This document shows, piece by piece, positions 42,875 through 60,388 of a stretch of DNA of 64,000 nucleotides (position 1 is its first letter; every line of letters starts with the position of its first letter). Under the pieces are notes generated by a model. It saw only the letters and a list, made by a program, of their open reading frames with translations. It searched no databases and was not told the DNA's origin. The translations under genes and the position numbers were made by a program. This DNA comes from Algoriphagus lutimaris (lineage in GTDB: Bacteria > Bacteroidota > Bacteroidia > Cytophagales > Cyclobacteriaceae). The stretch spans positions 1,054,001 to 1,118,000 of the forward strand of contig NZ_JAFIDJ010000001.1 of NCBI RefSeq assembly GCF_017051705.1, in the 5' to 3' direction.

Positions 42875-43552
42875 TTAGACTTTATACTGCTTATATTCAA
42901 TTTCCAAGTGATTTCCCCGTACCACCACCCCAATTCCAAAACTGGGTTGAAAATTGCTATAAATACAGCTCAAGGATTGAAATGATTGATTTTTTGAAAT
43001 TGCAGGAACCTCTAATCTTGGGTTTTCCATGGTATCTTTGACAAGCACTTGGTCAAGTGGAAATGTCAAACCTTTCCCAACTAATTTTATATAGGCCTCT
43101 TTGATACACCATAACCTGAAAAAAGCATCAGCCTTAACTCTTCCTGTGGAATTTCGAATCAATGAGATTTCATCAGAAGCAAAAAAATGATTAGAGATGA
43201 GCTCTGCTTCAATCTCATCATTTAATGATTCTATATCGACCCCTATTTCAGCTTCTCTAGAGAAACCATATAGCACGCAATCCTTAGAATGTGATATATT
43301 AAAAAAGATTTTAGTTTTAGGATTTGCTACATATGGTTTTCCAAGATTGGAATAATCTATAACCATTTCATTAGGTTTTATGTCAAGATACTCAGAAAGC
43401 AGTTTTCTAAGAATGCTTCTCCTTTTAATGAACTTAATTTTTAGCTCAGGACGAACAAAACGATCTGCACGTTCCAATTCTTCTCTTGCAAGATCCCTCC
43501 CATCTTCTTCAGGAATTTTGTCCAGTCTGGCAAGCCATAAATCAACTTTCAT
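42875..43552 (-). CDS. Sfp-type 4'-phosphopantetheinyl transferase
   Basis: A 225-residue enzyme that transfers phosphopantetheine from CoA to carrier-protein serines. Motifs of the Sfp/Gsp group are visible: LGKPYV, FNISHSKDCVLYGF, IGVDIE (Mg ligands Asp and Glu) and the FFRLWCIKEAYIKLVGKGL helix (W-x2-KEA). Length matches Sfp. It is the last gene of the leftward unit, 14 bases after the TE-containing NRPS, and would activate the carriers of both NRPSs and the stand-alone carrier at 56035. Its presence in the operon supports a functional assembly line. Confidence 0.95.
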   Translation of the reverse strand: MKVDLWLARLDKIPEEDGRDLAREELERADRFVRPELKIKFIKRRSILRKLLSEYLDIKPNEMVIDYSNLGKPYVANPKTKIFFNISHSKDCVLYGFSREAEIGVDIESLNDEIEAELISNHFFASDEISLIRNSTGRVKADAFFRLWCIKEAYIKLVGKGLTFPLDQVLVKDTMENPRLEVPAISKNQSFQSLSCIYSNFQPSFGIGVVVRGNHLEIEYKQYKV

Positions 43553-43566
43553 GAATTTATAGTTTT

Positions 43567-46500
43567 CTATTTGTCATCCCATTTTTTGAGATTCCTTACG
43601 ATTGCCTTATTTAGTTGACCTGTATACGGTTCTCTCATCAATTTTAAATGTGGACCTAGAATCTTCTCTCGATCCACGATATTTAATAAGGGGTCCCATT
43701 CATAGGTATGTTTAAATTCCCTGGGTGTGGTTATAAGTAAGGTGTCACAAGCTATTTTTTCAGGCTTATAAGAAAGAATATACTTTTTCAATAAGCCTGT
43801 ATCTTGGATCAATACCGGCGGATTAGAATCCTTTATTACCTTTTTTCGAACTTTTTCCAGCAATTGGCCAGGTTTCTTCCAGTAGTCCAAATAGGTAAAT
43901 AGCTTTTTATAACCTCCTTTTCCAAAGGTCCTGGATTTATCAAAAAACAGCGGAGGATCGATCATGATCAAATTTACTTGCTCCCCTACTTCTAGCAATT
44001 GTCTGGCAATCTCGAAGGCAACTACATTCCCGATTGAATAGGATAAAATGCGGTAGGGGCCTTTGGATTGAATCAATCTAATATCTTCTAAACATAGACT
44101 TGCTATCTCTTCAATATTCCTAGGTATTGAAGTCTTGATCAATTCAGGACTCACCGACAAAATGCCATAAACCGGGTATTCAGCGGGCATATGCCTTGTC
44201 AATTGGCTATAAACTGTTTCGTAATAAAATTCACTATGAATACAGAAAAGGGGTGATTTTCTCCCGGTTGTTTTAATAGGTATCACCCTTTTAATATTTT
44301 TTGACTCAAATTCAACTAAACTACTAATAGATAGGATTTTCTTTGAAATATCCTGAATTGAGTCATTTATATGGATCGGCTCCTTAAAAGTAAATTTGGA
44401 GCTCAGCTCTTTCTCAACCTGTCTCCACTCATAATCCGAACCTCCATTTTTTTGGAAACTATCCTTCACCCCAATTAATTTTTGATTGAGATAGGTTTCC
44501 CAAACCTTTAAAACCTCAAGTTCTAGCGTGTTTACCGGTCTCTGATACGCTTCATGATGAATAGACTTGACTAGCGATTCCACTGTAGAATAACGTAAAA
44601 ATTGAGCTGGCGTAACCTTAATCCCAATGTCTCTGCATCTTGCGATGATTCGAATGCTTTGGAGCGAATTTCCACCCAACTCATAAAAATCTTTATTGAC
44701 AGGAACTTCCTCCTCTCCCATTACATCGGCCCAAATCCCTGCAACTTGCCGCTCTAAATACGAAGAAGGAACTTTTGGTGCAGCAATTGATGCCTTTGGC
44801 TTAGCTAGCGCAATTCCCTTTAAAGCATTCAAATCTACTTTTCCGTTTGGCAGCAAAGGAAATTCATTCAAAGTGAGAATTAAATCCGGAACCATGTATC
44901 GGGGTAAATTTTGACGGAAAAATTCCCCCATCTCCTCTTCTTTTAAATTAGCATCCGATTTAATAGCTAAAATTATTTGAGCTTCTGATTCTCCACTTAC
45001 AATTGCTAAGGCCGAACTAACTTTTGGATAGCGTTGGGCTAAATCTTGAATCTCAGTCAATTCTACTCGGTGCCCTCGGATTTTTACTTGATTGTCCTCT
45101 CTCCCAAGGTATTCCAGTAACCCATCTTTTTGTATTCGAACCAAGTCTCCCGTCCTATAAACCCTATCCCATTCATCAGAAAATGGGTTTTTCAGGAATT
45201 TAACAGCTGTCTCACTTTCCGATAAATAGCCTTTTGTCAGTCCAGCACCAGCAATGCAAAGTTCTCCGGGAATACCGATAGGACTTAATTTCTGATTTGA
45301 ATCAAGAACATAGGCTAAGGTATTCGATGTAGCTAAACCTATAGGAACTCGATGAAAAGAATCCCCAGCCTTTAGTTCCTGAACAGTACACCAAACAGTC
45401 CCCTCTGTTGGGCCATATTCGTTAAAAAGACGTGTATTTGGAAGCTTGTCAAAGTGCGTTTTTATCAATTCGTTTGGAAATTCTTCCCCTGCTAAAATTA
45501 CTCCCCTTAGAGAATCCCAGGTTCTATCATTTCCTTGCAATAGAGCCTGATAAAGGGATGGAAGCATCAGCGTGTGACTGACTTCTTCACGCGCAAGAAT
45601 TGCAGAAAGAGCAGCTGTGTCTAAGGTCTCATTTTGTTGGGTGATAATGAGTTTACCTCCCGAGCACAAAGACCAAAAAATTCCAGCCACAGAACTGTCA
45701 AAAGAAAAAGAGGATACCAATAAGAATGAGGTTGGCGACTCTTTATAATAGCTTTTTCTAGCTGCCACAGAAGAGTATAAATTATCATGGCTAACCAATA
45801 CACCTTTGGGTTTATTAGTACTACCAGAGGTGAAAATAAGGTAAGCATTTTCGCCAATATTATTTATTTTATCTAATTGATTATCAATGTTTTGATTGTA
45901 TTCAAGTGAATCTATTTCTATTATTTTAAACTTTTCTTTAACAGACTCTTTAGAATCAACTAAATGACGATGAGTCAAGAGATACTTAGCCCCTGATTCT
46001 TTTAGGTATTGGAGAATCCTTTGGTCCGGATAGTCAGGATCCAATGGCAAATAAGCTCCTCCAAATCTTAAGATGGCAAGAATTGAAACCAGAAAATCCA
46101 CGGACCTTTCCATAAAGATTCCTATAGGTTGATTTGGGTCAGCTGAATTCTCTTTTAACTCTTGCGCAATTATTTGACTTCTCTTATCTAGTTCTCCATA
46201 AGTAATTCGCTCCAAACCGCAGACTGCAGCAATTTGATCTTTGTTTTTAGTTAGGTTTTCAAAAATCTCAGTGAGAACAGTCTGGTTACTTTCTGGGCGA
46301 AACTCATGACCAAGACCTGAAATTAGATATTGATTCTCTTCCTCGGAAATAAGAGAATAAGAGTCAATCTCTAGGTTTGGATTATCGCATATGTTTTCTA
46401 AAAGTGTCGCAAAATGCTGACTCAAACGCTCCGCAAACACAGGACTAAATAAATCCGTACTAATTTCTATTCCAATTTGATAAGCATTGGCTTTTAGACC

Positions 46501-47748
46501 AAAATGATGCAGCGTCAAATCAAATTTAGAAACCTCTAAATCCAACACTTCAAAATCTACCGAAAGACCATGGTTTTCAAAAGGATTCTCCCCAGCGGAA
46601 TGCCCCACAAACATGGCTTGAAATAAAGGATTGTAGCTTTGATCTTTTGTTGTTTGTGAATTACTTACCAAATCCTCATAACTCGGTTTTTCGGAAGAAA
46701 TGGCCTCTAAAACATCATTTTTGATTTCTTTAATCAGCTCAGGAAACAATTTATGTTTTTCCAGATTAGTCTCAATTACCTGCGTATCTACAAAATACCC
46801 AACCATGGATTTAAACTCTTCTTTATCTCTATTGAAGACTGGTATTCCTACCGTTACCTCTTCACTTTTTGCATACCGACCAAGCAAAACCTGAAAGCAT
46901 GCAAGGAAAAGGTTAAAGTCCGTAGTTTGAAAATCTCTGACGAGCTTCGCTACTTTATCAGTTAATTTTTTTGGCAAGGCAAACCGAATTAAACTGCCTT
47001 GGTAACTTGGACTAGCCGGCCTTGGAAAATCCAGCGGTAGATCTAAAAATGAATCCGTACGCGTAGTAAATGAATTGGAAATAAACTCGGATTTGGGAAG
47101 TTCTTTTTGCCAGGAGGTATAATCCTGATATTGCAGCTCATTTTCAGGTACTGAGAAGTTTGATTGTTGATGATTATTGGAAATCTCAGCATAAAAATCA
47201 GCAAAATCTTCCCTCAAAATACCCATGGACCAGGCATCAATTATGATATGATGGAAGGTGATCCCTATCAAATATTGGTTATTAAGATCACAAACCCCCA
47301 ACCGAATCAAAGGATCTGTTTCTAGCCTAAAAGCTTTGCTAGCTAGATTTTTAAGCCAGATTCTGGCATTTGATTCATGCTGTATATCATATGCAACATG
47401 AAGATCAAAGCTCTTTTCCTGTCGAAAAACCATCACAGGTTCCTCTTGGAATACGACATAATTGCTTGCTAAAATCTGATGCTTGGCAACTAAGCATTCC
47501 AAGGCTTTTGTAAAAACACCTTGATCAAAAGAGGATCCTTGAAAATTCCAGATCTCTGAATAATTATATACAGGGCTTTCAGGATTCTTTTGATAGACGA
47601 ACCAAAGGCGCCGTTGAGCTACAGAAAGTGGATAATGGTCTGATAAGTTAGCTTTGGGAATTCGCTCCTCTGCTAAATTTTCAGATCCTCGATCCTGTTC
47701 GTTAAAATTAAGCCACTGATCAAGAAGATCATCAGAATTTCCTTCCAT
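43567..47748 (-). CDS. Nonribosomal peptide synthetase C-A-PCP-PCP*-TE (termination module)
   Basis: A 1393-residue synthetase. Condensation domain about 35-460 with HHIIIDA (His166, His167, Asp171). Adenylation domain about 485-975: TSGSTNKPKG from 640, NEYGPTEG at 776, YRTGDLVR at 864 and Lys970 in NGKVDL. The specificity residues, aligned by hand to GrsA, read DSAMIAEVWK, which matches no code I remember. First carrier 985-1055 with LGGNSL (Ser1028). A second carrier-like segment follows (IGVKDSFQKNGGSDY, about 1065-1140) in which the Ser position is Asp. Thioesterase about 1155-1390 with SYSIG (Ser1238) and HLKLMREP. It is the only protein here with a release domain, so it should act last. 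It lies 11 bases after the HupE-like gene. Confidence 0.93.
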   Translation of the reverse strand: MEGNSDDLLDQWLNFNEQDRGSENLAEERIPKANLSDHYPLSVAQRRLWFVYQKNPESPVYNYSEIWNFQGSSFDQGVFTKALECLVAKHQILASNYVVFQEEPVMVFRQEKSFDLHVAYDIQHESNARIWLKNLASKAFRLETDPLIRLGVCDLNNQYLIGITFHHIIIDAWSMGILREDFADFYAEISNNHQQSNFSVPENELQYQDYTSWQKELPKSEFISNSFTTRTDSFLDLPLDFPRPASPSYQGSLIRFALPKKLTDKVAKLVRDFQTTDFNLFLACFQVLLGRYAKSEEVTVGIPVFNRDKEEFKSMVGYFVDTQVIETNLEKHKLFPELIKEIKNDVLEAISSEKPSYEDLVSNSQTTKDQSYNPLFQAMFVGHSAGENPFENHGLSVDFEVLDLEVSKFDLTLHHFGLKANAYQIGIEISTDLFSPVFAERLSQHFATLLENICDNPNLEIDSYSLISEEENQYLISGLGHEFRPESNQTVLTEIFENLTKNKDQIAAVCGLERITYGELDKRSQIIAQELKENSADPNQPIGIFMERSVDFLVSILAILRFGGAYLPLDPDYPDQRILQYLKESGAKYLLTHRHLVDSKESVKEKFKIIEIDSLEYNQNIDNQLDKINNIGENAYLIFTSGSTNKPKGVLVSHDNLYSSVAARKSYYKESPTSFLLVSSFSFDSSVAGIFWSLCSGGKLIITQQNETLDTAALSAILAREEVSHTLMLPSLYQALLQGNDRTWDSLRGVILAGEEFPNELIKTHFDKLPNTRLFNEYGPTEGTVWCTVQELKAGDSFHRVPIGLATSNTLAYVLDSNQKLSPIGIPGELCIAGAGLTKGYLSESETAVKFLKNPFSDEWDRVYRTGDLVRIQKDGLLEYLGREDNQVKIRGHRVELTEIQDLAQRYPKVSSALAIVSGESEAQIILAIKSDANLKEEEMGEFFRQNLPRYMVPDLILTLNEFPLLPNGKVDLNALKGIALAKPKASIAAPKVPSSYLERQVAGIWADVMGEEEVPVNKDFYELGGNSLQSIRIIARCRDIGIKVTPAQFLRYSTVESLVKSIHHEAYQRPVNTLELEVLKVWETYLNQKLIGVKDSFQKNGGSDYEWRQVEKELSSKFTFKEPIHINDSIQDISKKILSISSLVEFESKNIKRVIPIKTTGRKSPLFCIHSEFYYETVYSQLTRHMPAEYPVYGILSVSPELIKTSIPRNIEEIASLCLEDIRLIQSKGPYRILSYSIGNVVAFEIARQLLEVGEQVNLIMIDPPLFFDKSRTFGKGGYKKLFTYLDYWKKPGQLLEKVRKKVIKDSNPPVLIQDTGLLKKYILSYKPEKIACDTLLITTPREFKHTYEWDPLLNIVDREKILGPHLKLMREPYTGQLNKAIVRNLKKWDDK

Positions 47749-47759
47749 ACTCTAATCTA

Positions 47760-48989
47760 CTAAAGGATTCCTTTTTCGAGCAACCAAGTATGAAGTTTCA
47801 AATCATATCCAAAGGCTCTTTCGATGATCCAATAAGCCGATATAGCCATCAATAAAAGAGAGAAACCAACAACGATGATATAGTATTGCTTTAGTCTACT
47901 TAGTAGGAAAAGAAGTGGAAAAGCAACAATGATAATTCCTAATTGACCAATTTCTACTCCCAGATTGAATCCAATTAATGAATAAACCAGATACTCCCCT
48001 CCTCTTGATTGTTCCGCCAAAACCGAGGCAAATCCAAATCCATGAAAGAGGCCAAATACTAAAATAATAAGCCACTCTCTCTTATTTAAAAATGGGACAA
48101 TGTTATGAAAAGCAGCCATGGCGATAGAAATGGCAATAATCGATTCTACTAACCTTGAAGGCAGATTAATCAATTCTAATGCAGCTAAACTTAAAGTTAC
48201 GGAGTGAGCAAGTGTAAAAATTGTGATTATTTTTACTACTGAAATAAAAGCTGTTTTAAAACTTGGCTGAGGATCAAAATCATTATAATTTATTCCTAAC
48301 CATTTCTTTTTAGGAGCATTTTTGGGTCTGTAAACAATCACCGAGGGAATCAGAAGGGCTATCAAAAAAAGGATATGATCCAATCCGATCCATATATGGT
48401 AAATCCCAGATTTCACCATTGCCAAAAAACCAGTTAGGACTGAACCTTCCTCAATGTCAAGCGTCTGATTTGGAGATGAAGTCCCAAAGATCAATGAAGG
48501 TAAGGATTCATTGGCCAATACACCCGTTTTCCAGTTCCGCTCAATATGAAGTAATGATTCATGATTACTCAATTCTTCTACAAAAATCTGATCATAAACC
48601 TCTAGATTGGAAGGAACAGGATTCATGTTTTCCATCGAAAAATTAAATAACAGGTAATCATCACCGTCTTTTAATTCCAACAAACCTAAGTCTGTGAAAA
48701 CCATAGCATGATCACCTTGGGAAGATGTAAACTTAAGGTGACTAAGAATATATTCTCGCATCCTTTGAACTTTTGGGTCATTCTCATCAGGAACTACTCC
48801 TGGTCCAATTTCAAAACCAAATACTTTTGCGATATCGCTTTTCCTTAGTTCTACCCTACAATCCATTTTACCTTCGTAAATACTCAGATAAATAAAATTT
48901 TGATTGGGTTTATGTGCCTCTACCCTGACTGCTAGTGTGAATAAAAGAAAGAATAAAAAACTTGTTCTGATTAATTTGGTTGTTGACAT
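47760..48989 (-). CDS. HupE/UreJ-family membrane protein (probable metal permease)
   Basis: A 409-residue protein: signal peptide (ending RVEAHKPN), a ~170-residue exported N-terminal domain, then six or seven transmembrane helices with the HupE/UreJ_2 signature SGIYHIWIGLDHILFL, TLAHSVTLSLA, and LFGLFHGFGFA. His/Asp residues in these helices are the likely metal ligands; relatives are associated with nickel, copper or cobalt uptake. Here it is the first gene of the leftward unit with an NRPS and a PPTase, and it is divergent from the operon carrying a TonB receptor. This suggests that it takes the metal (or metal-peptide) across the inner membrane. The exact metal cannot be told from sequence. 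Confidence 0.88.
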   Translation of the reverse strand: MSTTKLIRTSFLFFLLFTLAVRVEAHKPNQNFIYLSIYEGKMDCRVELRKSDIAKVFGFEIGPGVVPDENDPKVQRMREYILSHLKFTSSQGDHAMVFTDLGLLELKDGDDYLLFNFSMENMNPVPSNLEVYDQIFVEELSNHESLLHIERNWKTGVLANESLPSLIFGTSSPNQTLDIEEGSVLTGFLAMVKSGIYHIWIGLDHILFLIALLIPSVIVYRPKNAPKKKWLGINYNDFDPQPSFKTAFISVVKIITIFTLAHSVTLSLAALELINLPSRLVESIIAISIAMAAFHNIVPFLNKREWLIILVFGLFHGFGFASVLAEQSRGGEYLVYSLIGFNLGVEIGQLGIIIVAFPLLFLLSRLKQYYIIVVGFSLLLMAISAYWIIERAFGYDLKLHTWLLEKGIL

Positions 48990-49025: not shown

Positions 49026-49044
49026 AACTTTTAATTTAAAAGTT
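49026..49044. promoter_or_regulatory. 19-bp inverted repeat in the divergent promoter region of the NRPS locus
   Basis: AACTTTTAATTTAAAAGTT is a perfect 9-1-9 palindrome, 36 bases before the HupE gene and 85 before the cyclodeaminase gene. Its 19-bp length is that of a Fur-family box, but its sequence does not match the classical GATAAT consensus and AT-rich palindromes can arise by chance. Confidence 0.4.
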
Positions 49045-49080
49045 ATGGAATTTGTGCTTTTTAGTAGGCAAAAAAATGAA

Positions 49081-49129: not shown

Positions 49130-50203
49130 ATGAAGAAAAATCAAGAAAGTATCATTATAGATAGTAATGCTGTCAATAAGATTATTACAAAAATTGGGTT
49201 AGACAGAGTAATGGATGACCTGATTTCCGAATTAGAAACAGCGCTTAAAAATTTTAGTAAGGCAGAAACTGAAGTACCCATTCGATCAGGGTTTAATTAT
49301 AAAAAACCATTCCTTGGTTTAGTAGAATGGATGCCGATCATGAAGAAAGGTGAAGAAGTTCTAATTAAAATTGTGGGCTACCATCCTGAAAACCCAGACA
49401 TTTTTAAACTACCTACTATTTTATCAACTATTTCTTCTTACGATGCTCACACAGGTCATTTGAATTTTTTAGTAGATGGAGTTTTGCTTACAGCATTACG
49501 TACCGGTGCCTCTAGTGCAGTTGCCAGTAAAATGATGGCAAAGCAAAATTCAAAGACACTTGGCATTGTTGGATGCGGAGCTCAGTCAATCACCCAGATT
49601 CATGCTATATCCAGATTGTTTCCAATCGAAGAGATTTTAATTTACGATATCGATCAAAACTGCATGGATAGCTTAGAGGATCGATTGGATCCTATTAATC
49701 TTAGAATTTCTCCTAAGCTCTCTAGCATATCTGAAATCTTGGAAAAATCGGATATTGTGTGCACCGCTACCTCCATAGCTCCTGAAAAAGGGCCGCTTTT
49801 TACAGAATTTAATTCAAAGCCTCACCTTCATATTAATGCTGTGGGAGCAGATTTTCCAGGAAAGTTTGAACTTCCAATGGAACTTTTGAAGAAATCTTAT
49901 GTTTGTCCTGATTTTCTTGAGCAAGCAGTTGTCGAAGGCGAATGTCAGCAATTGGAACCCTCTGATATTGGTCCATCTTGGATTGAATTAATCCATAATC
50001 AAGTTTTGATCAAAAAGTACCAATCTGGAATAAGCATATTTGATTCTACTGGATGGGCATTGGAAGACCAGGTTGTGGCCAATTTATTTGCCAAATATGC
50101 AAATGAATTAAAACTAGGAACAAAGATGAATATTGAGTCTTACAGTTCTGATGAAAAAAATCCATATGGAATGATTCATCAGCTAATCAATGTAGCTCAA
50201 TAG
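49130..50203 (+). CDS. Ornithine cyclodeaminase/mu-crystallin family enzyme
   Basis: A 357-residue NAD-dependent enzyme. The substrate-binding half shows LVDGVLLTALRTGASSAVAS, the Rossmann motif LGIVGCGAQSITQ lies at about 141-153, and the catalytic Asp241 sits in NAVGADFPGKFEL, the motif of true ornithine and lysine cyclodeaminases. FDSTGWALEDQ follows near the C-terminus. Ornithine cyclodeaminase makes L-proline with loss of ammonia; lysine cyclodeaminase makes L-pipecolate; the SbnB relatives make diaminopropionate precursors. As first gene of the NRPS operon it probably supplies a dedicated cyclic imino acid. The product identity is inference. Confidence 0.85.
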   Translation: MKKNQESIIIDSNAVNKIITKIGLDRVMDDLISELETALKNFSKAETEVPIRSGFNYKKPFLGLVEWMPIMKKGEEVLIKIVGYHPENPDIFKLPTILSTISSYDAHTGHLNFLVDGVLLTALRTGASSAVASKMMAKQNSKTLGIVGCGAQSITQIHAISRLFPIEEILIYDIDQNCMDSLEDRLDPINLRISPKLSSISEILEKSDIVCTATSIAPEKGPLFTEFNSKPHLHINAVGADFPGKFELPMELLKKSYVCPDFLEQAVVEGECQQLEPSDIGPSWIELIHNQVLIKKYQSGISIFDSTGWALEDQVVANLFAKYANELKLGTKMNIESYSSDEKNPYGMIHQLINVAQ

Positions 50204-50325: not shown

Positions 50326-52572
50326 ATGTCTATGATTAAAATAGTACTCTCCACCGTTGTCCTATTTACTTTTACAGTAATTTTTGTAAACGCCCAAGCA
50401 CTAAAAGGCCGAGTTTTAGACAGAGCAAGTTCCCCAATTATCGGAGCATATATTATTCACAATGCCTCAGAGCATCATGCTCACACTAATGAATCCGGAT
50501 ATTTTGTTCTTGCAGGTGTTCAAGATGGAGATTCCCTCCAAGTAAGTCATATTGGGTATGAAACCCAGATTTTTGTAGTAAATAATCTTTCAAAAGAAGT
50601 TACTGTGCGGATGGATGAAACAACCATTGAACTTGGAGAAGTGGTATTCAGTCAAGACGTTAACCCCGTAAATACACTTTCCCGAATTGATCTTAAAACA
50701 AATCCAGTAAACACTTCTCAAGATATATTAAGAAAAGTACCTGGGCTTTTCATAGGTCAACATGCTGGAGGGGGTAAAGCCGAACAAATTTTCCTTCGTG
50801 GATTTGATATTGACCATGGAACAGATATAAATATAACAGTTGATGGCATGCCTGTCAATATGGTATCTCATGCCCATGGACAAGGATATTCAGATCTCCA
50901 TTTTTTGATTCCAGAAACAGTAGAGCGGGTTGATTTTGATAAAGGACCCTATAATGCCGATAAAGGAAATTTTGCTACTGCAGGCTATGTAAACTTCCAA
51001 ACAAAAAGAGGATTGGATAAGAGTTCTGTTTCAGTGCAGGGCGGAAGTTTCAATAGTGTCCGTACTGTAGGATTATTTAATCTAGTGAATGACCAGAAAA
51101 ATAATGCATATGTAGCTGCAGAATATTTGGCAAGTGATGGTCCGTTTGAATCCAGTCAGAATTTTAACCGGTTAAATCTAATGGGGCGGTATGGTCTAAA
51201 ATTAGATGACGGAAGTGATATCAGTTTAATTGCATCTCATTTTACCAGTAAATGGGATGCTTCAGGACAGATACCGGTTCGTGCGGTAGAAAGTGGTCAA
51301 ATCACCAATTTCGGGGCTTTGGATGATACTGAAGGAGGATATACAAGTAGAACAAACATCGCTCTAAATCATACCAAGCTTATTAACGACCGTCTATTTA
51401 TTAAAAATAACGCCTACTATTCTACCTACGATTTTGAACTATTTTCAAACTTTACTTTCTTCTTAGAAGATTCAGTAAATGGAGATCAAATTCGACAGCG
51501 GGAAAACCGGGCGATTTTTGGAGCAGAAAGCCAACTTACATATAGCAATACATTTAATGGTGGAGAATATGCGCTTCAAGTTGGTGTAGGACTTAGAAAT
51601 GATGACATTCGGGACAATGAATTGGCTGGAACAAAAAATAGAGATAGTGTTCGATTTGTAACCCAAAGAGGTGACATCACTGAGTCGAATTATTACAGCT
51701 ATGTGAATTTTGATCTTTACTTGAAAAAGCTAAGAATCAACCCAGGGATACGTGTTGATTATTTTAATTATCTATATCAGGACGACCTCACACCAGAATA
51801 TGACCCTGAATCTTTAAATGCGGCAGTTGTGAGTCCCAAACTGAATTTCATTTACACTGCTAACGAAAATGTGCAGGTTTTCTTAAAATCAGGAATTGGC
51901 TTTCACTCAAACGACACCCGTTTGGTGTTAGAAAGGCCTAATAATGAATCCATACTTCCAAGAGCCTTTGGTGCTGATTTAGGAGGTAATTTTAAATTAA
52001 TGCCACGATTAATAGTAAATGGAGCGCTTTGGTATTTAAGACTTGAACAGGAATTTGTCTATGTAGGTGATGCCGGCATTGTGGAGGCGAGTGGAAGAAC
52101 AGCAAGAAGAGGAGTAGATTTGGGATTGCGTTGGCAAGCAAATAAGTGGATCTATTTAGATGGGGATTTCACCTACTCATATGCTAGAAGCATAGATGAC
52201 CCTGAAGGAAATAATTTCATCCCATTGGCACCAAGAATTACTACAACAGGAGGATTGAGTTTTGAAAAAGATGGTTTTGCAGGTGCTATAAGAGCCAGGT
52301 ATTTACAGGATCGTCCTGCAAATGAAGACAACAGTGTGGTTGCCAAAGGATATACGGTAGTTGATATGAACGCTAATTATACTTTTAATGCATTCACTTT
52401 TGGTTTTTTCATAGAGAACCTGCTTAATACTGATTGGAAAGAAACCCAATTTGATACGGAATCTAGAATAAGGCTTGCAAATGGAAACCTCGAAGCAAGT
52501 CCGGTTAGTGAGATTCATTTTACTCCTGGTACTCCTTTCAATTTTAGAGGTTTTGTGAAATTCACATTCTAA
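50326..52572 (+). CDS. TonB-dependent outer-membrane receptor
   Basis: A 748-residue receptor: signal peptide (ending FVNAQ), a CarboxypepD_reg-like beta-sandwich (about 25-105: LKGRVLDRASSPIIGAYI), plug domain (about 120-230) and a 22-strand barrel ending GFVKFTF. It is histidine-rich in exposed places: HNASEHHAHTN (45-55) in the N-terminal domain and VSHAHGQGY (His182, His184) in the plug. Receptors with this HAHGQGY plug are often found next to HupE-type genes and are thought to import metals or metal complexes. It starts 122 bases after the cyclodeaminase and 5 bases before the dehydrogenase gene, inside the biosynthetic operon. It probably imports the metal-loaded product. Confidence 0.93.
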   Translation: MSMIKIVLSTVVLFTFTVIFVNAQALKGRVLDRASSPIIGAYIIHNASEHHAHTNESGYFVLAGVQDGDSLQVSHIGYETQIFVVNNLSKEVTVRMDETTIELGEVVFSQDVNPVNTLSRIDLKTNPVNTSQDILRKVPGLFIGQHAGGGKAEQIFLRGFDIDHGTDINITVDGMPVNMVSHAHGQGYSDLHFLIPETVERVDFDKGPYNADKGNFATAGYVNFQTKRGLDKSSVSVQGGSFNSVRTVGLFNLVNDQKNNAYVAAEYLASDGPFESSQNFNRLNLMGRYGLKLDDGSDISLIASHFTSKWDASGQIPVRAVESGQITNFGALDDTEGGYTSRTNIALNHTKLINDRLFIKNNAYYSTYDFELFSNFTFFLEDSVNGDQIRQRENRAIFGAESQLTYSNTFNGGEYALQVGVGLRNDDIRDNELAGTKNRDSVRFVTQRGDITESNYYSYVNFDLYLKKLRINPGIRVDYFNYLYQDDLTPEYDPESLNAAVVSPKLNFIYTANENVQVFLKSGIGFHSNDTRLVLERPNNESILPRAFGADLGGNFKLMPRLIVNGALWYLRLEQEFVYVGDAGIVEASGRTARRGVDLGLRWQANKWIYLDGDFTYSYARSIDDPEGNNFIPLAPRITTTGGLSFEKDGFAGAIRARYLQDRPANEDNSVVAKGYTVVDMNANYTFNAFTFGFFIENLLNTDWKETQFDTESRIRLANGNLEASPVSEIHFTPGTPFNFRGFVKFTF

Positions 52573-52577
52573 ATTAT

Positions 52578-53723
52578 ATGGATTTTAGCTGGAGCAAAGA
52601 ACAATTAGAATTACGAGAGAAGGTCAAGAAATTCTCGGAGAATAATCTGAATAAAGACATTTCTCAAAAAGATCGTAATAATATATTTCCAGAAGAAGAA
52701 TGGAAAAAATGTGCTGAGTTTGGGGTTTTGGGTTGGCCTTTTAAAAAGGAATATGGAGGAGGAGGATTTGATTCACTTACTACAGTATTGATGCTCGAAG
52801 GACTAGGCTATGGAAGTAAAGACAATGGACTCCCCTTTTCTCTTAATTCCCAAATTTGGAGTACTCAAGTTGCAATCAATGCTTTTGGAACAGAAGAGCA
52901 AAAACAAAAGTATTTGACTAGATTAATTTCGGGCACAATTGGAGCATTTGGAATAACTGAAGAAGGTTCTGGTTCGGATACTTATGCCTTAGAAATGACT
53001 GCTGAGAAAGTTAAGGGAGGATATATCTTAAATGGAGAAAAGCATTACATCACCTTAGCCCCTATTTGTGAAATAGCAGTTGTGTTTGCTACTACAAATG
53101 TAAAGTTAGGCAAGTGGGGAATTACGGCTTTCATTGTGGATAAAACAATGGAGGGCTTTTCCAGTAGTGACGTTCGGGATAAAGTAGGAATGCGAACAAC
53201 CCCCATGGGAAATCTCTATCTAAAAAACTGTTTTGTACCGGATGAAAACCGATTGGGAAGAGAGGGTTCAGGTTTAAGTCTTTTTAGTTCTGCTATGGAA
53301 TCAGAGCGGGGCTATATCTTTGCAAGTCAGATTGGAAGAATGGAAAAGCAATTAGAATTATCAATTGCTTACGCCAACGAACGCAAATCCTTTGGGCAGA
53401 GCATTGGTAAATATCAATCTATTTCCAACCGTATCGCCAATATGAGACTGAGGCTTGAAACCTCAAAAATGCATCTTTATAAAGTAGCATATTTAGATAA
53501 AAATGATTTGCCTCTAATACGAGAAGCGGCAATGGCTAAACTATACATCAGTGAAGCTTTTGTGGAATCCAGTTTGGATTTTATTAGAATTTTTGGAGCC
53601 AAAGGAGTGGTAACAGAATATGAAGTAGAACGTGATCTTCGAGATGGATTAGGAGGATTGATATACTCTGGAACATCAGATATTCAAAGGAATATTATTG
53701 CTAAATTGGATGGATTACTATGA
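52578..53723 (+). CDS. Acyl-CoA dehydrogenase-fold flavoenzyme, possible prolyl-carrier dehydrogenase
   Basis: A 381-residue enzyme with the full acyl-CoA dehydrogenase fold: FGITEEGSGSD (FAD-binding), GEKHYITLA, the MESERGYIFASQIGRMEKQLE segment and the C-terminal YSGTSDIQRNIIAKL. The C-terminal pattern and the neighbours (adenylation enzyme sharing ATGA with this stop, and a stand-alone carrier) recall PltE, RedW and CloN3, which oxidise L-prolyl-S-carrier to pyrrolyl-2-carboxyl-S-carrier. Ordinary fatty acyl-CoA activity cannot be excluded, but the operon argues for a carrier-bound amino acyl substrate. Confidence 0.85.
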   Translation: MDFSWSKEQLELREKVKKFSENNLNKDISQKDRNNIFPEEEWKKCAEFGVLGWPFKKEYGGGGFDSLTTVLMLEGLGYGSKDNGLPFSLNSQIWSTQVAINAFGTEEQKQKYLTRLISGTIGAFGITEEGSGSDTYALEMTAEKVKGGYILNGEKHYITLAPICEIAVVFATTNVKLGKWGITAFIVDKTMEGFSSSDVRDKVGMRTTPMGNLYLKNCFVPDENRLGREGSGLSLFSSAMESERGYIFASQIGRMEKQLELSIAYANERKSFGQSIGKYQSISNRIANMRLRLETSKMHLYKVAYLDKNDLPLIREAAMAKLYISEAFVESSLDFIRIFGAKGVVTEYEVERDLRDGLGGLIYSGTSDIQRNIIAKLDGLL

Positions 53724-55252
53724 ATTCTACTAGTCAACTGTTAAGTGAACTCATTGCGGTCGGAGCAAAAAAGACTCCGAACAAAATTGCTTTTAAAAGC
53801 GGTGAAGCCCAGATCACCTATCAGGAATTAGAATTTAGAAGCAATCAACTAGCAAATTGGCTTGTAGAAAATCAGGTAAAAAAAGGAGAGCGAGTCGGTA
53901 TTCTGATTGAGAAAAATGCTTTTACAGCCTATGCAATATATGGCATTTTAAAAGCGGGAGCTGTATTGGTGGCCTTAGATCCCAGTCAACCTTCAGAAAG
54001 GCTAAATGCAATTATCGCAGATTGCTCAATTAAAGTAGTAGTCAGCATCCCCTCCCACCAACGAGTTATAGATCAGATTGATAATCAAAATTTTTTAGTA
54101 ATAGGTTCAAATCATGGCGTTTCTTGGGAAAATATATTTCAATTAGCAAGTGCCAACCCTTTGGATTTAGAAATAGAACAAAGCGACCTTGCTTATATCC
54201 TTTATACTTCGGGCTCTACCGGAGAACCAAAAGGAATTGTCCATACACATGCAAGCGGGTTGGCTTATGCTAGGCAATCTACTTTGCTATATGAAGTTTC
54301 TGAAGATGACATCATTGGGAATATAGCTTCTTTGCATTTTGATCAAAGTACATTTGGATACTTTTCAGCAATGTATGCCGGTTGTACTACCTATATTTTC
54401 AATACCAGCGAATTAGTCATGCTTGGGAGTTTTTGTGAAGCGGTAAGATCAAATGGGGTTACCATTTTGTATTCTGTCCCTTCATTATTCATTTCATTGA
54501 TCCAAGGAGGTTTTGATTTAGATTTCCCATCAGTAAGATGGATTAAGTATGGAGGTGAATCCTTTCCAGCAATCAAATTAAACGAGTTATTAAAAAAGGC
54601 TCCAAATGCGAATATTTCGAATGTTTATGGACCTGCCGAAGTGAATCAATGTACTTATTATACTATTTCAGAGCCTATTGAGCCAGATAAAGAAATTCCT
54701 ATTGGTCAGGTTTGGGATAATACAAGCTACTTAATTTTGAATTCGGAAGATCAGCAGGTTGCTCCTGGGGAACAAGGAGAATTTCTAGTTCATTCCGTGA
54801 CTATGATGTCAGGCTATTGGAATAATGATTCCTTGAACCAAAAGTCTTTTTATACCTACAGAAGTGAAGGAAAGGAAGTAAAATATTATCGAACAGGCGA
54901 CTTTGTCTATTTGAACAAAAATAATGAGTTGGTATTTGTAGGCAGAATGGATCGTCAAGTAAAGATTAGTGGCTATAGGATTGAACTTGGAGCCATTGAA
55001 CAGGTATTAATTCAATGCCCAGAAGTAAAGGATGTGGCTGTTTTCACTTGTAAATCAAATGGAATGAGAGAATTATGTGCTGCAATAGTACCAAAGGAAA
55101 AGCCATTAGATAATGATTCATTGAGAAAGAGATTGTTAAAACTACTCCCAAAGACAAGTATTCCAAAACACTTCTATGAAGTTCAATCACTACCCCATTC
55201 AGTCAATGGAAAAGTTCATTACCAAAAGTTGGAAAAACAGTTTTCTAATTAA
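53720..55252 (+). CDS. Stand-alone amino acid adenylation enzyme
   Basis: A 510-residue single A domain: YILYTSGSTGEPKG (A3), NVYGPAEVNQCTYY (A5), YYRTGDFVYL (A7), GRMDRQVKISGYRIELG (A8) and NGKVHYQKL (A10 Lys). The GPAEVNQCTYY form resembles prolyl-carrier ligases such as PltF, RedM and CloN4 (GPTETNVCTYY-like). The hand-read specificity residues are D-Q-F-S-K-G-V-Q-C-K; the conserved first Asp means an alpha-amino acid substrate. I expect it to load the carrier at 56035, with proline or a relative as best guess. Its ATG overlaps the dehydrogenase stop by four bases (ATGA). Confidence 0.9.
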   Translation: MNSTSQLLSELIAVGAKKTPNKIAFKSGEAQITYQELEFRSNQLANWLVENQVKKGERVGILIEKNAFTAYAIYGILKAGAVLVALDPSQPSERLNAIIADCSIKVVVSIPSHQRVIDQIDNQNFLVIGSNHGVSWENIFQLASANPLDLEIEQSDLAYILYTSGSTGEPKGIVHTHASGLAYARQSTLLYEVSEDDIIGNIASLHFDQSTFGYFSAMYAGCTTYIFNTSELVMLGSFCEAVRSNGVTILYSVPSLFISLIQGGFDLDFPSVRWIKYGGESFPAIKLNELLKKAPNANISNVYGPAEVNQCTYYTISEPIEPDKEIPIGQVWDNTSYLILNSEDQQVAPGEQGEFLVHSVTMMSGYWNNDSLNQKSFYTYRSEGKEVKYYRTGDFVYLNKNNELVFVGRMDRQVKISGYRIELGAIEQVLIQCPEVKDVAVFTCKSNGMRELCAAIVPKEKPLDNDSLRKRLLKLLPKTSIPKHFYEVQSLPHSVNGKVHYQKLEKQFSN

Positions 55253-55273: not shown

Positions 55274-56035
55274 ATGCTTAGTCAAGAGCAAATCAATACA
55301 TACCATCATCAAGGCTTCTTACAAATAAGTAATTGGCTGGAGGGAAAAGAATTAGATCAGGTCACCCTTGCTATTGAAAAAATTGAGCAACTAGATGGAC
55401 CCGAATTTTTCAGAGAAAAATCCTCTGGAAAAATCCGGACCATTTTTGCACCCGAAAAATTTGATTCATCCATTCTTGCACTACTTGAAAATTCCTCATT
55501 ACCGAAAATTATTGAGCAGCTTTTGAAGACTGATTTTTATTTATTTCAGTCTAAACTAAACACCAAAAGTAGTCTTGAATCAGGTGTCTGGAGTTGGCAT
55601 CAAGATTTTAAATTTTGGAAAGAAGATGGGATGATTGCTCCAAATGCTCTGACCGTTGCTATCTTGCTGACGGATGTAGATGTAGCAAATGGTCCTATAT
55701 TAGCGATACCATCATCCCAAAATGAAGGAGAAGTGGATTCGTACTTGAATAATCCAGATGGAGTACATGATGAGAATCTGAAATATATGATCACCCAAAA
55801 GACCTTATCGGAAATGGTGAAAAAATATAGCCCCATTATTCCATTTACTGGGAAAGCCGGTGACATTCATATTTTCCATTGTAATTTACTTCATAGCTCT
55901 TATCAAAACATGGGGGTAATTGATAGAAAACTATTAATGTTTACTTTCAACCCAATTGATAATATCAAAGAAGTTTCAGATCCAAGACCTGATTATATGG
56001 TCAAAAGAAACCATAATGCATTAAACCCAAAGTAA
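55274..56035 (+). CDS. PhyH/EctD-like Fe(II)/2-oxoglutarate dioxygenase
   Basis: A 253-residue non-heme iron dioxygenase. The facial triad is visible as His109 and Asp111 in SWHQDFKFW and a distal His207 in HCNLLHSSY, with a 2-oxoglutarate-binding Arg in DRKLLMF. The stretch after the HxD (WKEDGM, then LLTDVDVANGPILAIPSS) is very close in pattern to ectoine hydroxylase EctD, whose relatives also hydroxylate proline-like rings. In this operon it probably hydroxylates the carrier-bound imino acid or the Asn side chain, which would provide a metal ligand such as beta-hydroxy-Asn. It lies 21 bases after the A enzyme, and its stop overlaps the carrier gene by one base. Confidence 0.9.
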   Translation: MLSQEQINTYHHQGFLQISNWLEGKELDQVTLAIEKIEQLDGPEFFREKSSGKIRTIFAPEKFDSSILALLENSSLPKIIEQLLKTDFYLFQSKLNTKSSLESGVWSWHQDFKFWKEDGMIAPNALTVAILLTDVDVANGPILAIPSSQNEGEVDSYLNNPDGVHDENLKYMITQKTLSEMVKKYSPIIPFTGKAGDIHIFHCNLLHSSYQNMGVIDRKLLMFTFNPIDNIKEVSDPRPDYMVKRNHNALNPK

Positions 56036-56262
56036 TGGTAGAAGAAATTACAAATTATATACATGAGGAAATAGACGTCCTTGTCAACCAAGAAGAAGAA
56101 CTATTGAGCAGTGGTTTGATTGATAGCATTACGATTATGAAACTTATTGCTCATTTGGAGGAGAGGTATGAAATTAAAGTTCCACCTCAGGATATGGTGA
56201 TAGAAAATTTTAATACAGTCCTTTCCATTACAGAATATATTGCCCAGCAGCAGAAAAAATAG
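56035..56262 (+). CDS. Stand-alone peptidyl/acyl carrier protein
   Basis: A 75-residue acidic four-helix carrier. The phosphopantetheine attachment Ser31 lies in SGLIDSITIMKL, and the third-helix region VPPQDMVIENFNTVLSI is as in PltL/RedO and D-alanyl carrier proteins. It would be activated by the Sfp-type enzyme at 42875 and loaded by the adenylation enzyme two genes upstream. TAATG coupling with the hydroxylase and only 7 bases to the NRPS suggest tightly linked translation. Confidence 0.93.
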   Translation: MVEEITNYIHEEIDVLVNQEEELLSSGLIDSITIMKLIAHLEERYEIKVPPQDMVIENFNTVLSITEYIAQQQKK

Positions 56263-56269
56263 ATAAAGA

Positions 56270-59200
56270 TTGCAAGTATTAAAAGACTCTATTTCCAGCC
56301 TAACAGGAAGTCAGCAAAGTATTTGGGCTAGTCAAAAGCTGGATCCTGACTCCACTTCAAACTATCTTCCCCATACATTTGAATTTAATGGTGAAATAGT
56401 TCCCTATACTTTTCAATTAGCTTTTAAACACCTGATTGTAAATCATGATTGCCTGAGAACAGTTTTTCTTGAAAATGAAGATTCAGTTGTTGAGCAAATT
56501 GTATTACCCAATTTAGATTTTGATCTTTCTTTCGAGAAGATTCCTAAAGCATCGCTTGATTCTTTCATCAAATCTCGAATTCAAACACCAATTGTCCTTT
56601 CCAAAAGATGCTTCGATTCCATCCTACTAAAAGTAGAAGAGGGAATTTTTATTTGGTATTTGAATATTCACCACATACTTGCAGATGCAACGACCTTTAA
56701 AGTTCTGTTTGAAGCATTAGGGAAGCTTTACGAAGCGGAATTAAAGAAAATTGAAAATGATTCTGGAAATCAAGTCAGCTTTAACGATTATCGGGAGTTT
56801 GAGCAGAAAAAACGAGAAAATAAAAATACCCCAGCTGCTGAATATTGGAAGTCAAAGGGACAAATTCCTGTTAAGGAGTTATCCTTATATGGAAATCTTA
56901 AATCTGAAAATCGATCCAAGGCAAGAAGGGTGAAAATCCCAATAAGTACAAAAATAAAGGGGCTTTTAGAGGAAAAACTAAATACAGAATCCTATAGATC
57001 CTTAAATCCCGACCTAACAAAATTCACCATTTGGTCTACTATTTTTGCTGCCTTTATCTCCAGGATTTCGGGTGAATCTGCCTTACGGATAGGAAGTCCC
57101 TTTCCAAACCGTAACCTCAGTAAATTCAAAAATACAGCTGGCCTGCTCATTGAGGTGTTGCCCGTTGATATTCAGGTAGACACTGAAGACTCCTTCCTAA
57201 GTCTTTTTGGGAAAGTGAGGCAAGAACTATTCGACTTTTTTAAAAATGGCTATCCTGGTGCCCAAACTTTAGAAAGCGTTAGAGGAATTCAAACAGTAGT
57301 AAATTACATCCCCCTTTATTTTGGTGATTTTGGAAAAATTCCAACCATAACTAAATGGCTTTTTTCAGGGCAGATGGACGCAGGTCATCGAATTCGTTTC
57401 CAGGCTTTCGATTTTAATGATCAATCAAACCTTGATTATTATTTCGATATTAATGAAGCTTATTTTACATCTAGCCAAATAGCCCTACTCCCACTCCATT
57501 TTGAAAAGTTGCTTCAGGCATTTATTTCAGATGACAAATCAAAAATTTCGGAGATAAAACTTGTTTCAGATAAGGAGGAAAAGGAGTTAATCGCTAGAGG
57601 TAAAAGCAATAAGGGTACTCCGATAACTTTTGATGAGCTTATTAAACCTGTTTTTGAATGGAATTCAAATGAACCAGCTTTAATATTGGGAGATAAAACC
57701 CTTTCTTACCAAGAACTAAGATCATTGGTGAATAAGGCTGTAGAAATACTTAATCACCAGGGGGTTAAAGAACAGGATATTGTGGTTGTACACAAAGAAA
57801 GATCCTTCGAATATATCATCTCTGTCCTTTCTATTTTAAGGCTTGGAGCCACATTTGTCCCTATGCCTGTGGATCTTCCACAAAGAAGGATGGAAGGAAT
57901 TTTGGCAGATTTGAGTCCTAAATTGATTGTAAGCTCATCATCAGATTTTGGACCCTTTTCATCCATCGATTTAAGGATCAATAATCTTCTTTCTTTCGAA
58001 TTGGCAGATCTAAAACCGGAACTAAAATTAGACCCCAATCGAACCGGATATATTCTTTACACTTCCGGTTCTACAGGCAAACCAAAAGGTGTGGAAATCT
58101 CCCTCAGTTCTTTAGCAAATTATTTAACCGAGGCTAAGAGGATGTACAGCAGTGGTCAGGAAGTACATATGCCTTTCTTTACTTCCATTGGTTTTGATCT
58201 AACGATCACATCTTTATTTCTGCCTTTAATTTCTGGAGGGACCATTCATATTTATCCAGAGAAGAAAAGTGGCCCTGACGTGTCTATTTTGGATGTCATT
58301 AAGAATAGAAGCATCAACACCATTAAGCTTACCCCCTCCCATGCGAGAATAATCCAGGAATCTTCCTTGAAAGAATCGAGGCTCAATACTGTGATTTTGG
58401 GAGGAGAGAATCTTGAGACTAGACTCGCTTCCAGCTTCCAAAAACTACTTCCGGAAGGAGCTGAAATTATTAATGAATATGGTCCTACAGAAGCAACAGT
58501 TGGCTGTATCGTACATAAATTTGATCCGAAAGAAACAGCTACTTCAGTTCCTATAGGAAAACCTATCTCGGGATGTAATTATTACATTTTGGATGAGAAA
58601 TTAAACCCGGTTCCGCAGGGCGTTAAGGGAACCTTATTTCTAGGAGGTGAAGTACTTGCCAAAGGATATTATAATAATCCTCAACGCACAGCTGAATCCT
58701 TTATTAGAAATCCATATCATGAAGATCAAATGATCTATAAAACCGGAGATTTGGTTCGGTTAAATGCCTCTGGCATACTAGAATACTTTGGTAGAATAGA
58801 TGAACAAATAAAGTTGAATGGTGTCAGGCTTGAATCAGCAGAATTGGAGATTTTGCTTTCCGAATTCCCTACCATAGAGGAAGCCCATATAGTCGTTGCT
58901 GATTCCAATGAGGATTTATACCAAGCACCTGATTTTTACTGTAGGAATTGTGGAATTCCATCCAATTATCCTGATGCGTCTTTTAATGAAGAAGGAATCT
59001 GCAATTTGTGTGAATCCTTTGAGGAATATCAGAAAAATGTTTCTTCTTACTTTAAATCCATTGCTAACTTAAAATCAGAGATTTTGGGTTTGGGAGAAAA
59101 CAAAGAGAAGGAATACGATTGTCTGATGCTATTAAGTGGAGGAAAAGACAGTAGTTACGCTTTGGCTAAATTGGTAGAACTTGGGCTTGATGTTTTGGCC

Positions 59201-60388
59201 TGGACGCTTGACAACGGGTTTATTTCAGATAATGCCAAGGAGAATATCAATAATACTGTCAATAAACTTGGGGTCGATCATATTTATGGCAGAACTGATG
59301 CCATGAACGCCATTTTCAGGGATAGTTTAGAAAGACATCAAAACGTGTGTAATGGTTGTTTTAAAACCGTATACACGCTCAGCACCCAACTGGCCCTTGA
59401 AAAAAATATACCGGTGATTGTTACGGGTCTTTCAAGAGGACAATTTTTTGAAACCCGACTCACTGAAGAACTATTCTTAAAGGATCATTTTGATCCGGCA
59501 GATATAGATCAAATCATCCTAGAGACTCGAAAATCCTATCATAGAAGCAAAGATGCAGTGAGTGAGTATTTGGATGTATCGATGTTTGAAACAGACGATG
59601 TTTTTACCAAGGTCTCTTTTGTTGATTTTTATCGATTCAGTGACGTAAGTCTTTCTGAGATGTATGCTTATCTGGAAGAGAAAATTGGGTGGAGAAGACC
59701 AAAGGATACCGGCAGAAGTACGAATTGTATCATAAATGATTTGGGAATTTTTGTTCACAAGCGAAAAAAAGGATACCACAACTATGCATTTCCGTATAGC
59801 TGGGATGTCCGCGTTGGACATAAAAAGCGGGAAGAAACCATAGATGAGTTGAATGATGAGCTGAGTACTGAGGAAATTACCAAGCTCATGCAGGAAATCG
59901 GTATGCAAGAGCATGCCATTCATTCCAAAGAAATCAGGGCCTACTTCAAAGCTTCTTCACAGGTAGATAAAAATGAATTGATGGAATATCTAAAGTCTTT
60001 CCTTCCACCTAACATGATCCCTTCTACTTTTATCCAGGTTGACTCCTTCCCACTCACTTCAAATGGAAAAGTAGATAAGCAGGCACTATTGAGAAGTCAG
60101 ACTAAAAGTACTCCAACAAAGAACAAAGCAATTATAAAACCCAAAAATAAAATTGAAGAGCTTGTACATGGAACCTGGTGTACTGTACTAAAGATGGACA
60201 GTATAGATGTGACAGATTCCTTTATACCATTAGGTGGAAATTCTTTATCAGCGATACGAATCGTTTCTCTTTTGAGCAAAAGGCTAAATCTGGAAATATC
60301 TATTCAAGACTTTTTTGAACAGGATACAATTCGGAAGCTATCAGCATCAATAGAAGTAGAAATCAAGAAACGAATGGGAATTGCATAA
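56270..60388 (+). CDS. NRPS C-A-PCP with a PP-loop (AANH-like) domain inserted in the A domain
   Basis: A 1372-residue synthetase starting at TTG 56270, the only usual start after the in-frame TAA at 56264. Condensation domain about 8-440 (HHILADA, His134, His135, Asp139). A domain from about 455: SGSTGKPKG at 599, NEYGPTE at 735, YKTGDLVR at 823, GRIDEQIKLNG at 841. Then, instead of ~100 residues to A10, about 415 follow. They contain a Cys4 element (Cys891, 894, 911, 914), the PP-loop LSGGKDSS (Ser956-Ser962), CNGC (Cys1027, 1030), and GWRRPKDTGRSTNC. A10 (SNGK, Lys1267) and the carrier (LGGNSL, Ser1325) then resume; there is no TE. The specificity residues DLTKIGEVGK nearly equal the Asn code. 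It is the last gene of the operon and likely the middle module. Confidence 0.93.
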   Translation: MQVLKDSISSLTGSQQSIWASQKLDPDSTSNYLPHTFEFNGEIVPYTFQLAFKHLIVNHDCLRTVFLENEDSVVEQIVLPNLDFDLSFEKIPKASLDSFIKSRIQTPIVLSKRCFDSILLKVEEGIFIWYLNIHHILADATTFKVLFEALGKLYEAELKKIENDSGNQVSFNDYREFEQKKRENKNTPAAEYWKSKGQIPVKELSLYGNLKSENRSKARRVKIPISTKIKGLLEEKLNTESYRSLNPDLTKFTIWSTIFAAFISRISGESALRIGSPFPNRNLSKFKNTAGLLIEVLPVDIQVDTEDSFLSLFGKVRQELFDFFKNGYPGAQTLESVRGIQTVVNYIPLYFGDFGKIPTITKWLFSGQMDAGHRIRFQAFDFNDQSNLDYYFDINEAYFTSSQIALLPLHFEKLLQAFISDDKSKISEIKLVSDKEEKELIARGKSNKGTPITFDELIKPVFEWNSNEPALILGDKTLSYQELRSLVNKAVEILNHQGVKEQDIVVVHKERSFEYIISVLSILRLGATFVPMPVDLPQRRMEGILADLSPKLIVSSSSDFGPFSSIDLRINNLLSFELADLKPELKLDPNRTGYILYTSGSTGKPKGVEISLSSLANYLTEAKRMYSSGQEVHMPFFTSIGFDLTITSLFLPLISGGTIHIYPEKKSGPDVSILDVIKNRSINTIKLTPSHARIIQESSLKESRLNTVILGGENLETRLASSFQKLLPEGAEIINEYGPTEATVGCIVHKFDPKETATSVPIGKPISGCNYYILDEKLNPVPQGVKGTLFLGGEVLAKGYYNNPQRTAESFIRNPYHEDQMIYKTGDLVRLNASGILEYFGRIDEQIKLNGVRLESAELEILLSEFPTIEEAHIVVADSNEDLYQAPDFYCRNCGIPSNYPDASFNEEGICNLCESFEEYQKNVSSYFKSIANLKSEILGLGENKEKEYDCLMLLSGGKDSSYALAKLVELGLDVLAWTLDNGFISDNAKENINNTVNKLGVDHIYGRTDAMNAIFRDSLERHQNVCNGCFKTVYTLSTQLALEKNIPVIVTGLSRGQFFETRLTEELFLKDHFDPADIDQIILETRKSYHRSKDAVSEYLDVSMFETDDVFTKVSFVDFYRFSDVSLSEMYAYLEEKIGWRRPKDTGRSTNCIINDLGIFVHKRKKGYHNYAFPYSWDVRVGHKKREETIDELNDELSTEEITKLMQEIGMQEHAIHSKEIRAYFKASSQVDKNELMEYLKSFLPPNMIPSTFIQVDSFPLTSNGKVDKQALLRSQTKSTPTKNKAIIKPKNKIEELVHGTWCTVLKMDSIDVTDSFIPLGGNSLSAIRIVSLLSKRLNLEISIQDFFEQDTIRKLSASIEVEIKKRMGIA

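Follow-up and report, generated by a model that had tools for sequence, protein, structure and literature searches.

Interrupted adenylation (A) domains of nonribosomal peptide synthetases (NRPSs), such as those of KtzH, TioN, McyA and ColG, carry a catalytic domain between motifs a8 and a9, after which A9/A10 and a peptidyl carrier protein (PCP) follow (PMC11355689). Where the insert is an M domain, it works on the residue bound to the carrier, and the inserts named in the available part of that source are methylation, Ox and KR domains (PMC11355689). A different described system is CtaC, the thiotemplated thioamide synthetase of closthioamide, an AANH enzyme acting on carrier-bound substrates; thioamide NRPS products are called exceedingly rare (PMC6772006). 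Here we describe an NRPS, termed NRPS1, encoded in a 64,000 nucleotide stretch of Algoriphagus lutimaris (NZ_JAFIDJ010000001.1, positions 1,054,001 to 1,118,000), hereafter the window, in whose own numbering coordinates are given. NRPS1 has an interrupted A domain with an AANH (N-type ATP pyrophosphatase) domain as its auxiliary domain. This kind of interrupted A domain is widely conserved and, as far as the open-access literature shows, undescribed. It shares with KtzH, TioN, McyA and ColG the a8-a9 insertion site and the A9/A10 and PCP that come after, but none of the inserts named in the available part of the source is a PP-loop/AANH domain (PMC11355689).

NRPS1 is a single open frame with a TTG start. 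Its features are as follows.

56270..60388, + strand: NRPS1, condensation (C) domain, A domain with the AANH domain inserted, PCP; 1372 aa (Pfam and NCBIfam)
56297..57589, + strand: condensation domain, residues 10-440 (Pfam PF00668, E 1e-49)
57668..58909, + strand: A-domain core, to past motif A8, with the Asn/Asp-type code DLTKIGEVG (PF00501, TIGR01733)
58925..59917, + strand: inserted AANH/PP-loop domain, residues 886-1216 (the modelled stretch)
58940..59011, + strand: N-terminal tetracysteine, Cys891/894/911/914 (conservation alignment)
59135..59152, + strand: PP-loop SGGKDS, residues 956-961 (kept in 84/84 aligned rows)
59348..59359, + strand: CNGC, Cys1027/1030 (aligned to the CYxC of LarE)
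59726..59728, + strand: Cys1153 in STNC, third cysteine of the CxxC...C set (kept in 84/84 rows)
59933..60124, + strand: remainder of the A domain, with strand IRAYFK, A9 LPPNMIP and A10 NGKVD (motif positions)
60161..60346, + strand: PCP of NRPS1, residues 1298-1359 (PF00550)

The Pfam AMP-binding match covers residues 467-801 and the NCBIfam AA-adenylation match residues 479-872 (E 1e-104), which puts the A-domain part ahead of the insert at 467 to about 872-880. Motif A8 (GRIDEQIK) stands at residue 841 and is followed by CRNC at 891, CNLC at 911, SGGKDS at 956 and CNGC at 1027, with A9 at 1245 and A10 at 1265. Judged by eye, the insert proper spans approximately residues 882-1218, starting past the strand-like IVVAD (874-878) and stopping ahead of IRAYFK (1222), which places it between A8 and A9. 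The motif positions thus describe an A domain that is complete apart from the extra domain between a8 and a9. Within the insert, QueC (Pfam) matches residues 951-1025 slightly below its cut-off, and TIGR03573 (WbuX) matches residues 890-1210 (E 2e-38), also under the family cut-off. In the predicted structure of residues 886-1216 the SGGxDS PP-loop lies in a Rossmann-like fold, as expected of AANH/PP-loop ATP pyrophosphatases. A sequence-only reading of this DNA had placed such a domain between A8 and A10, and the motif positions, the NCBIfam match and the predicted fold bear this out; the positions it gave for CRNC, CNLC, the PP-loop and CNGC were correct. The kinship to WbpG and TtuA/Ncs6 that it named holds up as a mixed WbpG/WbuX and TtuA/LarE flavour, in line with the TIGR03573 match and the fold comparison, and the structure prediction, which it had named as a check able to overturn the claim, returned a PP-loop fold.

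The insert was matched in 12 of 58 genomes (the own genome and relatives) at E <= 0.001. Insert-bearing open reading frames (ORFs) of 1367-1394 aa were found in the own genome and in 4/35 congeners; the assembly of one of these four congeners is a single contig. A fifth congener holds a mere 66-residue piece in a 937-aa frame, and the remaining six matches, all weaker, come from frames of 262-607 aa. In a broader draw of 395 Bacteroidota genomes, 61 match the insert at E <= 1e-5; only the own genome and one other (G257) do so at E < 1e-160 in long frames, the rest having E >= 5e-27 in frames of 302-680 aa. A species-genome collection was also scanned with an alignment of eight inserts, giving 177 relatives, and all locus counts below use the best 80. 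In 79/80 loci the frame with the insert also has an A core ahead of it; the sole exception (L088) begins at a contig end. A PCP match follows in 77 of the 80, a C match precedes in 73 and a GKxD-like A10 motif comes after in 74. An assembly error or a chance fusion, the former raised as a danger by the sequence-only reading, is ruled out by these 79 loci together with the four congeners.

The fusion also occurs on two plasmids of Roseobacter-type bacteria. These plasmids (L019 and L021) belong to different Rhodobacterales genera and carry a near-identical NRPS island, several protein accessions being identical, which suggests horizontal spread. Transposition genes lie near the island in L019. 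On a plasmid of Streptomyces sp. NBC_01216 (L020:17944-20124) a related AANH domain is not embedded. It opens a protein of its own that also has a condensation-like part; the gene immediately before encodes an uninterrupted A-PCP protein of another code, and asnB lies one gene further up. This arrangement may be a natural split form. It was nonetheless counted among the 84 rows of the conservation alignment and the 45 family-labelled rows of the tree.

The tree combined a subset of the family alignment (45 of its 84 rows) with 29 free-standing proteins. These family rows form one side of a branch with support of 100/100, recovered in all 200 bootstrap trees; midpoint rooting served only for display, and the program issued a warning about long branches. 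Phylum labels on the family rows include Bacteroidota, Cyanobacteriota, Pseudomonadota, Acidobacteriota, Chloroflexota, Verrucomicrobiota and Myxococcota. Within the family side, the Streptomyces row sits on a long branch and with weak support (90/83, a ten-row fork).

Conservation was assessed in an alignment of 84 rows, drawn from the 80 loci, the three plasmid loci and the window. Every row has SGGKDS and Cys891, 894, 914, 1027, 1030 and 1153, and Cys911 is present in 83/84. The scan patterns lay on CNGC and the PP-loop, so the conservation of both is partly selected; Cys891-914 and Cys1153 were outside the patterns. Identity to NRPS1 was compared in 66 proteins that had C, A and PCP matches and an insert less than 75% identical to that of NRPS1. 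Median identity was 59% for the insert, 41% for the A core, 36% for the PCP and 32% for the C domain, and the insert was more conserved than the A core in 66/66 proteins. The loss of cysteine and PP-loop residues across homologues, which the sequence-only reading had said would tell against it, was therefore not seen. The search for like A domains that it proposed yielded the 177 relatives, and its remark that it knew of no described NRPS with such an insert agrees with a search of the literature, which found none; this search covered open access alone, so the absence is weak evidence. It had missed Cys1153, the unvarying Asn/Asp-type code in the host A domain and a conserved cluster with uptake-like genes.

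The code of the host A domain is of the Asn/Asp type in 78/78 proteins scored (DLTKIGEVG in 64, DLTKVGEVG in 9, DLTKIGEIG in 3 and DLSKIGEVG in 2). We take it to mean Asn and not Asp, by comparison with the Asn code DLTKLGEVGK. The pairing of an unvarying Asn-type residue with an unvarying modifying domain suggests the Asn side-chain carboxamide as the target amide; inserted M domains, too, modify the residue on the carrier (PMC11355689). In the part of the source available, DLTKIGEVGK appears in a section for Asp/Asn/Glu/Gln and is also compatible with a Cya-3 moiety (PMC12283262).

The architecture, its conservation, the fold and the recurring cluster are computed results; from them we infer the following chemistry. 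The A domain would load Asn onto the following PCP, and the insert would bind ATP at its PP-loop and adenylate the amide oxygen of the PCP-bound substrate, most likely the side-chain carboxamide of Asn. AMP would then leave and a new atom would replace the oxygen. The favoured atom is sulfur, which would be delivered at a [4Fe-4S] cluster, as the CxxC...C set suggests, to give a thioamide. That the insert acts in cis to make an amidine, thioamide or amide, as the sequence-only reading had suggested it could, is plausible. We give about an even chance to the overall explanation of an interrupted A domain with an AANH insert that modifies the Asn amide in cis for a metallophore product. A thioamide as the product of the insert falls somewhat short of that; it is the first choice, ahead of an amidine formed by ammonia, which is possible, and then a nitrile formed by dehydration, which is improbable.

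The cysteines of the insert can be set beside two sulfur systems. Compared by description, CtaC is likewise an AANH protein with a CxxC and a distal cysteine at a spacing similar to that found in the insert, where a [4Fe-4S] role is putative; it differs in being free-standing, in an NRPS-independent pathway and in an anaerobic host (PMC6772006). LarE (8cnz and 8cp4, with [4Fe-4S]) has a CxxC at about the same distance past the PP-loop and the sulfur-insertase fold found also in TtuA/NcsA. By the offset of the alignments, Cys1153 falls on LarE residue 176. However, the five LarEs compared have no tetracysteine ahead of the PP-loop, the third cysteine lies at +150 in LarE versus +197 in the insert, and the substrates of LarE and TtuA/NcsA are a cofactor or tRNA. 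The insert scores 21.4 bits against the LarE model TIGR00268, whose cut-off is 150.

The strongest rival is an in-cis amidotransferase of the NASAT/WbpG type, in which ammonia, perhaps freed by a cyclodeaminase, turns the Asn carboxamide (or a backbone amide) into an amidine. We consider it a real though lesser possibility. The insert resembles NASAT/WbuX/WbpG (TIGR03573; 8WEX) in its fold, N-terminal tetracysteine and PP-loop, with about 20% identity over 294 columns. A tetracysteine before the PP-loop is stated for NASAT, and in LpNASAT (8WEX) it binds zinc, according to the available part of the source (PMC10607449). The insert has this NASAT-type tetracysteine, but it scores 137.4 bits against TIGR03573 (136.7 in the genome scan), below the cut-off of 203, while six free-standing proteins score 345, 306, 118, 322, 297 and 332 bits. 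It also has CNGC and Cys1153, sits inside an NRPS and lies on the opposite side of the tree (100/100). NASAT has HisH/HisF as an ammonia-supplying partner encoded nearby. Homologues of HisH and/or HisF lie beside 5/7 free-standing loci (HisF only in L147; the CWHC-type L141 and L143 are included), whereas none was detected at E <= 1e-4 near the 81 NRPS loci (the 80 and the window), with flanks of at most 10 kb and many contigs shorter. We read the missing HisH/HisF and the missed cut-off as evidence against a HisH-fed amidotransferase and, together with the CxxC...C set, in favour of sulfur; plain NASAT membership is rejected. Cyclodeaminases release NH3, which would suit the rival, yet one was found in just 27/80 loci.

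Several points weigh against sulfur transfer and for the amidotransferase. NASAT is the closest family to the insert by both sequence and fold. A CxxC after the PP-loop occurs in 4/29 free-standing proteins, two of which adjoin HisH/HisF, and these CWHC NASATs make the CxxC compatible with nitrogen transfer. This count covers 29 of 35 loci and superseded one with a stricter pattern (14/32 loci), in which cysteines stood at the 1027/1030 columns in 3/14 and at 1153 in 4/14. The Roseovarius locus L019, outside the 81, has an annotated hisH within a group of polysaccharide genes, approximately 12 kb ahead of its NRPS. Moreover, many loci are on short contigs and the HisH/HisF absences are weaker than the numbers look. 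Among the free-standing proteins, L144:5243-6325 is the divergent NASAT-like protein with 118 bits to TIGR03573 and has CVAC after its PP-loop; the 600-aa protein after it is possibly a carbamoyltransferase, a guess from its start.

An insert that acts as a nitrile synthetase would adenylate the Asn carboxamide and eliminate AMP to give beta-cyanoalanine. ArtA/NitB and QueC likewise activate an amide with ATP on a related fold; in the part of the source available they are free-standing and of other subfamilies, and ArtA is an argininosuccinate-synthetase-like enzyme (PMC13060819). The conserved CxxC...C set would have no evident role in such a reaction, which we consider improbable. Equally improbable is the making of Asn from Asp in cis, with the A domain loading Asp and the AANH domain amidating its side chain. 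The available code section does not tell Asp and Asn apart (PMC12283262), and the Streptomyces locus has asnB two genes ahead of its AANH protein. However, free Asn is present in the cell, which makes a dedicated invariant domain costly, and no HisH-type glutaminase was found in the 81 loci. A structural or regulatory relic without catalysis is very hard to reconcile with an insert better conserved than the A core in every protein compared and with a PP-loop and six cysteines kept in every row.

In the window and four congeners NRPS1 closes a cluster of two divergent halves, PPTase - NRPS2 - HupE_UreJ_2 and cyclodeaminase - TonB receptor - dehydrogenase - starter A - PhyH - PCP - NRPS1. Family counts in the 80 loci are lower bounds, owing to many short contigs and crude clustering (NRPS1 itself was grouped in only 76).

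42875..43552, - strand: 4'-phosphopantetheinyl transferase (PPTase; PF01648)
43567..47748, - strand: NRPS2, C-A-PCP-thioesterase (TE), code DSAMIAEVW; family in 52/80 loci
47760..48989, - strand: HupE_UreJ_2 membrane protein, possible metal permease (PF13795, E 7e-45); 47/80 loci
49130..50203, + strand: ornithine/lysine cyclodeaminase family; 27/80 loci
50326..52572, + strand: TonB-dependent receptor; 36/80 loci
52578..53723, + strand: acyl-CoA-dehydrogenase family, nearest prolyl-carrier dehydrogenases; 42/80 loci
53720..55252, + strand: stand-alone A domain for the starter; 56/80 loci
55274..56035, + strand: PhyH-type dioxygenase; among clustered loci, only in the window and four Cyclobacteriaceae loci
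56035..56262, + strand: stand-alone PCP of 75 aa, starter carrier (PF00550); 47/80 loci
60470-61936: Na+/sulfate-type symporter gene, directly downstream of NRPS1

The symporter gene is kept after NRPS1 in the four congeners and L024 and was not found in L023 (Cyclobacterium salsum). The divergent promoter has a near-palindrome (approximately 49027-49045) that is kept in just one of the four congeners (L136) and absent in L137-L139, and was dropped as a regulator site. A small His-rich protein family (f155) occurs in 26/80 loci (e.g. L057:11451-11921) and in Flavobacteriaceae-type loci lies between NRPS1 and the TonB receptor. Its mean His content is 7.6% versus 2.2% in 78 other ORFs of 120-200 aa, and the one member searched had no Pfam or NCBIfam match; it is possibly metal-handling.

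The dehydrogenase is nearest to the prolyl-ACP dehydrogenase 4irn (E 7e-117), which we take to be AnaB; the PigA model also matched, below its cut-off. The cyclodeaminase is nearest in the PDB to lysine cyclodeaminase (8e-81), then ornithine cyclodeaminase (8e-35). Starter A codes are more varied than host codes, with at least 20 types among 56. At least 6/56 starter A domains, with code CFFSVFVVC, have no amine-binding Asp (L078, L082, L100 and three more), and the starter in these clusters may be another acid, perhaps one that is not an amino acid. A pyrrole-2-carboxyl starter from proline is weakened by these domains and by the lysine-type cyclodeaminase; the starter A code of the window matches no proline code known to us, which also weighs against it. 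NRPS2-family proteins longer than 700 aa have the code DSA[M/C/L]IAEVW in 36/43, the other seven being different or incomplete. The window code DSAMIAEVW is one position off DSALIAEVWK, listed as a His code in the available part of the source (PMC12283262).

The predicted product would therefore appear to be an oxidised cyclic amino acid (proline or pipecolate), a modified Asn and a His-type residue, released by the TE. Given the TonB receptor and the HupE/UreJ-like protein of the cluster, the product probably serves as a metallophore, with copper, nickel or a similar metal as its ligand partner. A series of N donors with imidazole at its end is reminiscent of Xxx-Xxx-His, a copper/nickel-binding motif.

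With an ATP-pyrophosphatase insert, a single chain combines two adenylating engines of different kinds. The first chooses the amino acid and loads it; the second probably rewrites an amide of the bound residue. The fusion offers a sequence marker for NRPS products with a thioamide or amidine, with the 177 relatives, the best 80 of them analysed here, as a ready test set, and the link of HupE_UreJ_2 (PF13795) to an NRPS pathway may help to reveal what that family does. Tentatively, the thioamide (or amidine) synthetase within the A domain could mark a widespread but undescribed class of small metallophores made by NRPSs, with the order cyclic-amino-acyl - modified Asn - His, that would bind copper or nickel via an N-donor or N/S set resembling Xxx-Xxx-His and be taken up by the dedicated TonB receptor and HupE/UreJ-like protein. 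Taken together, the repeated presence of the TonB receptor, the HupE/UreJ-like protein and the His-type module is suggestive of a metal-scavenging molecule common to several bacterial phyla. As the hybrid recurs in several phyla, often beside metal-uptake-like genes, it may be part of a family of metal-binding peptides not yet described.

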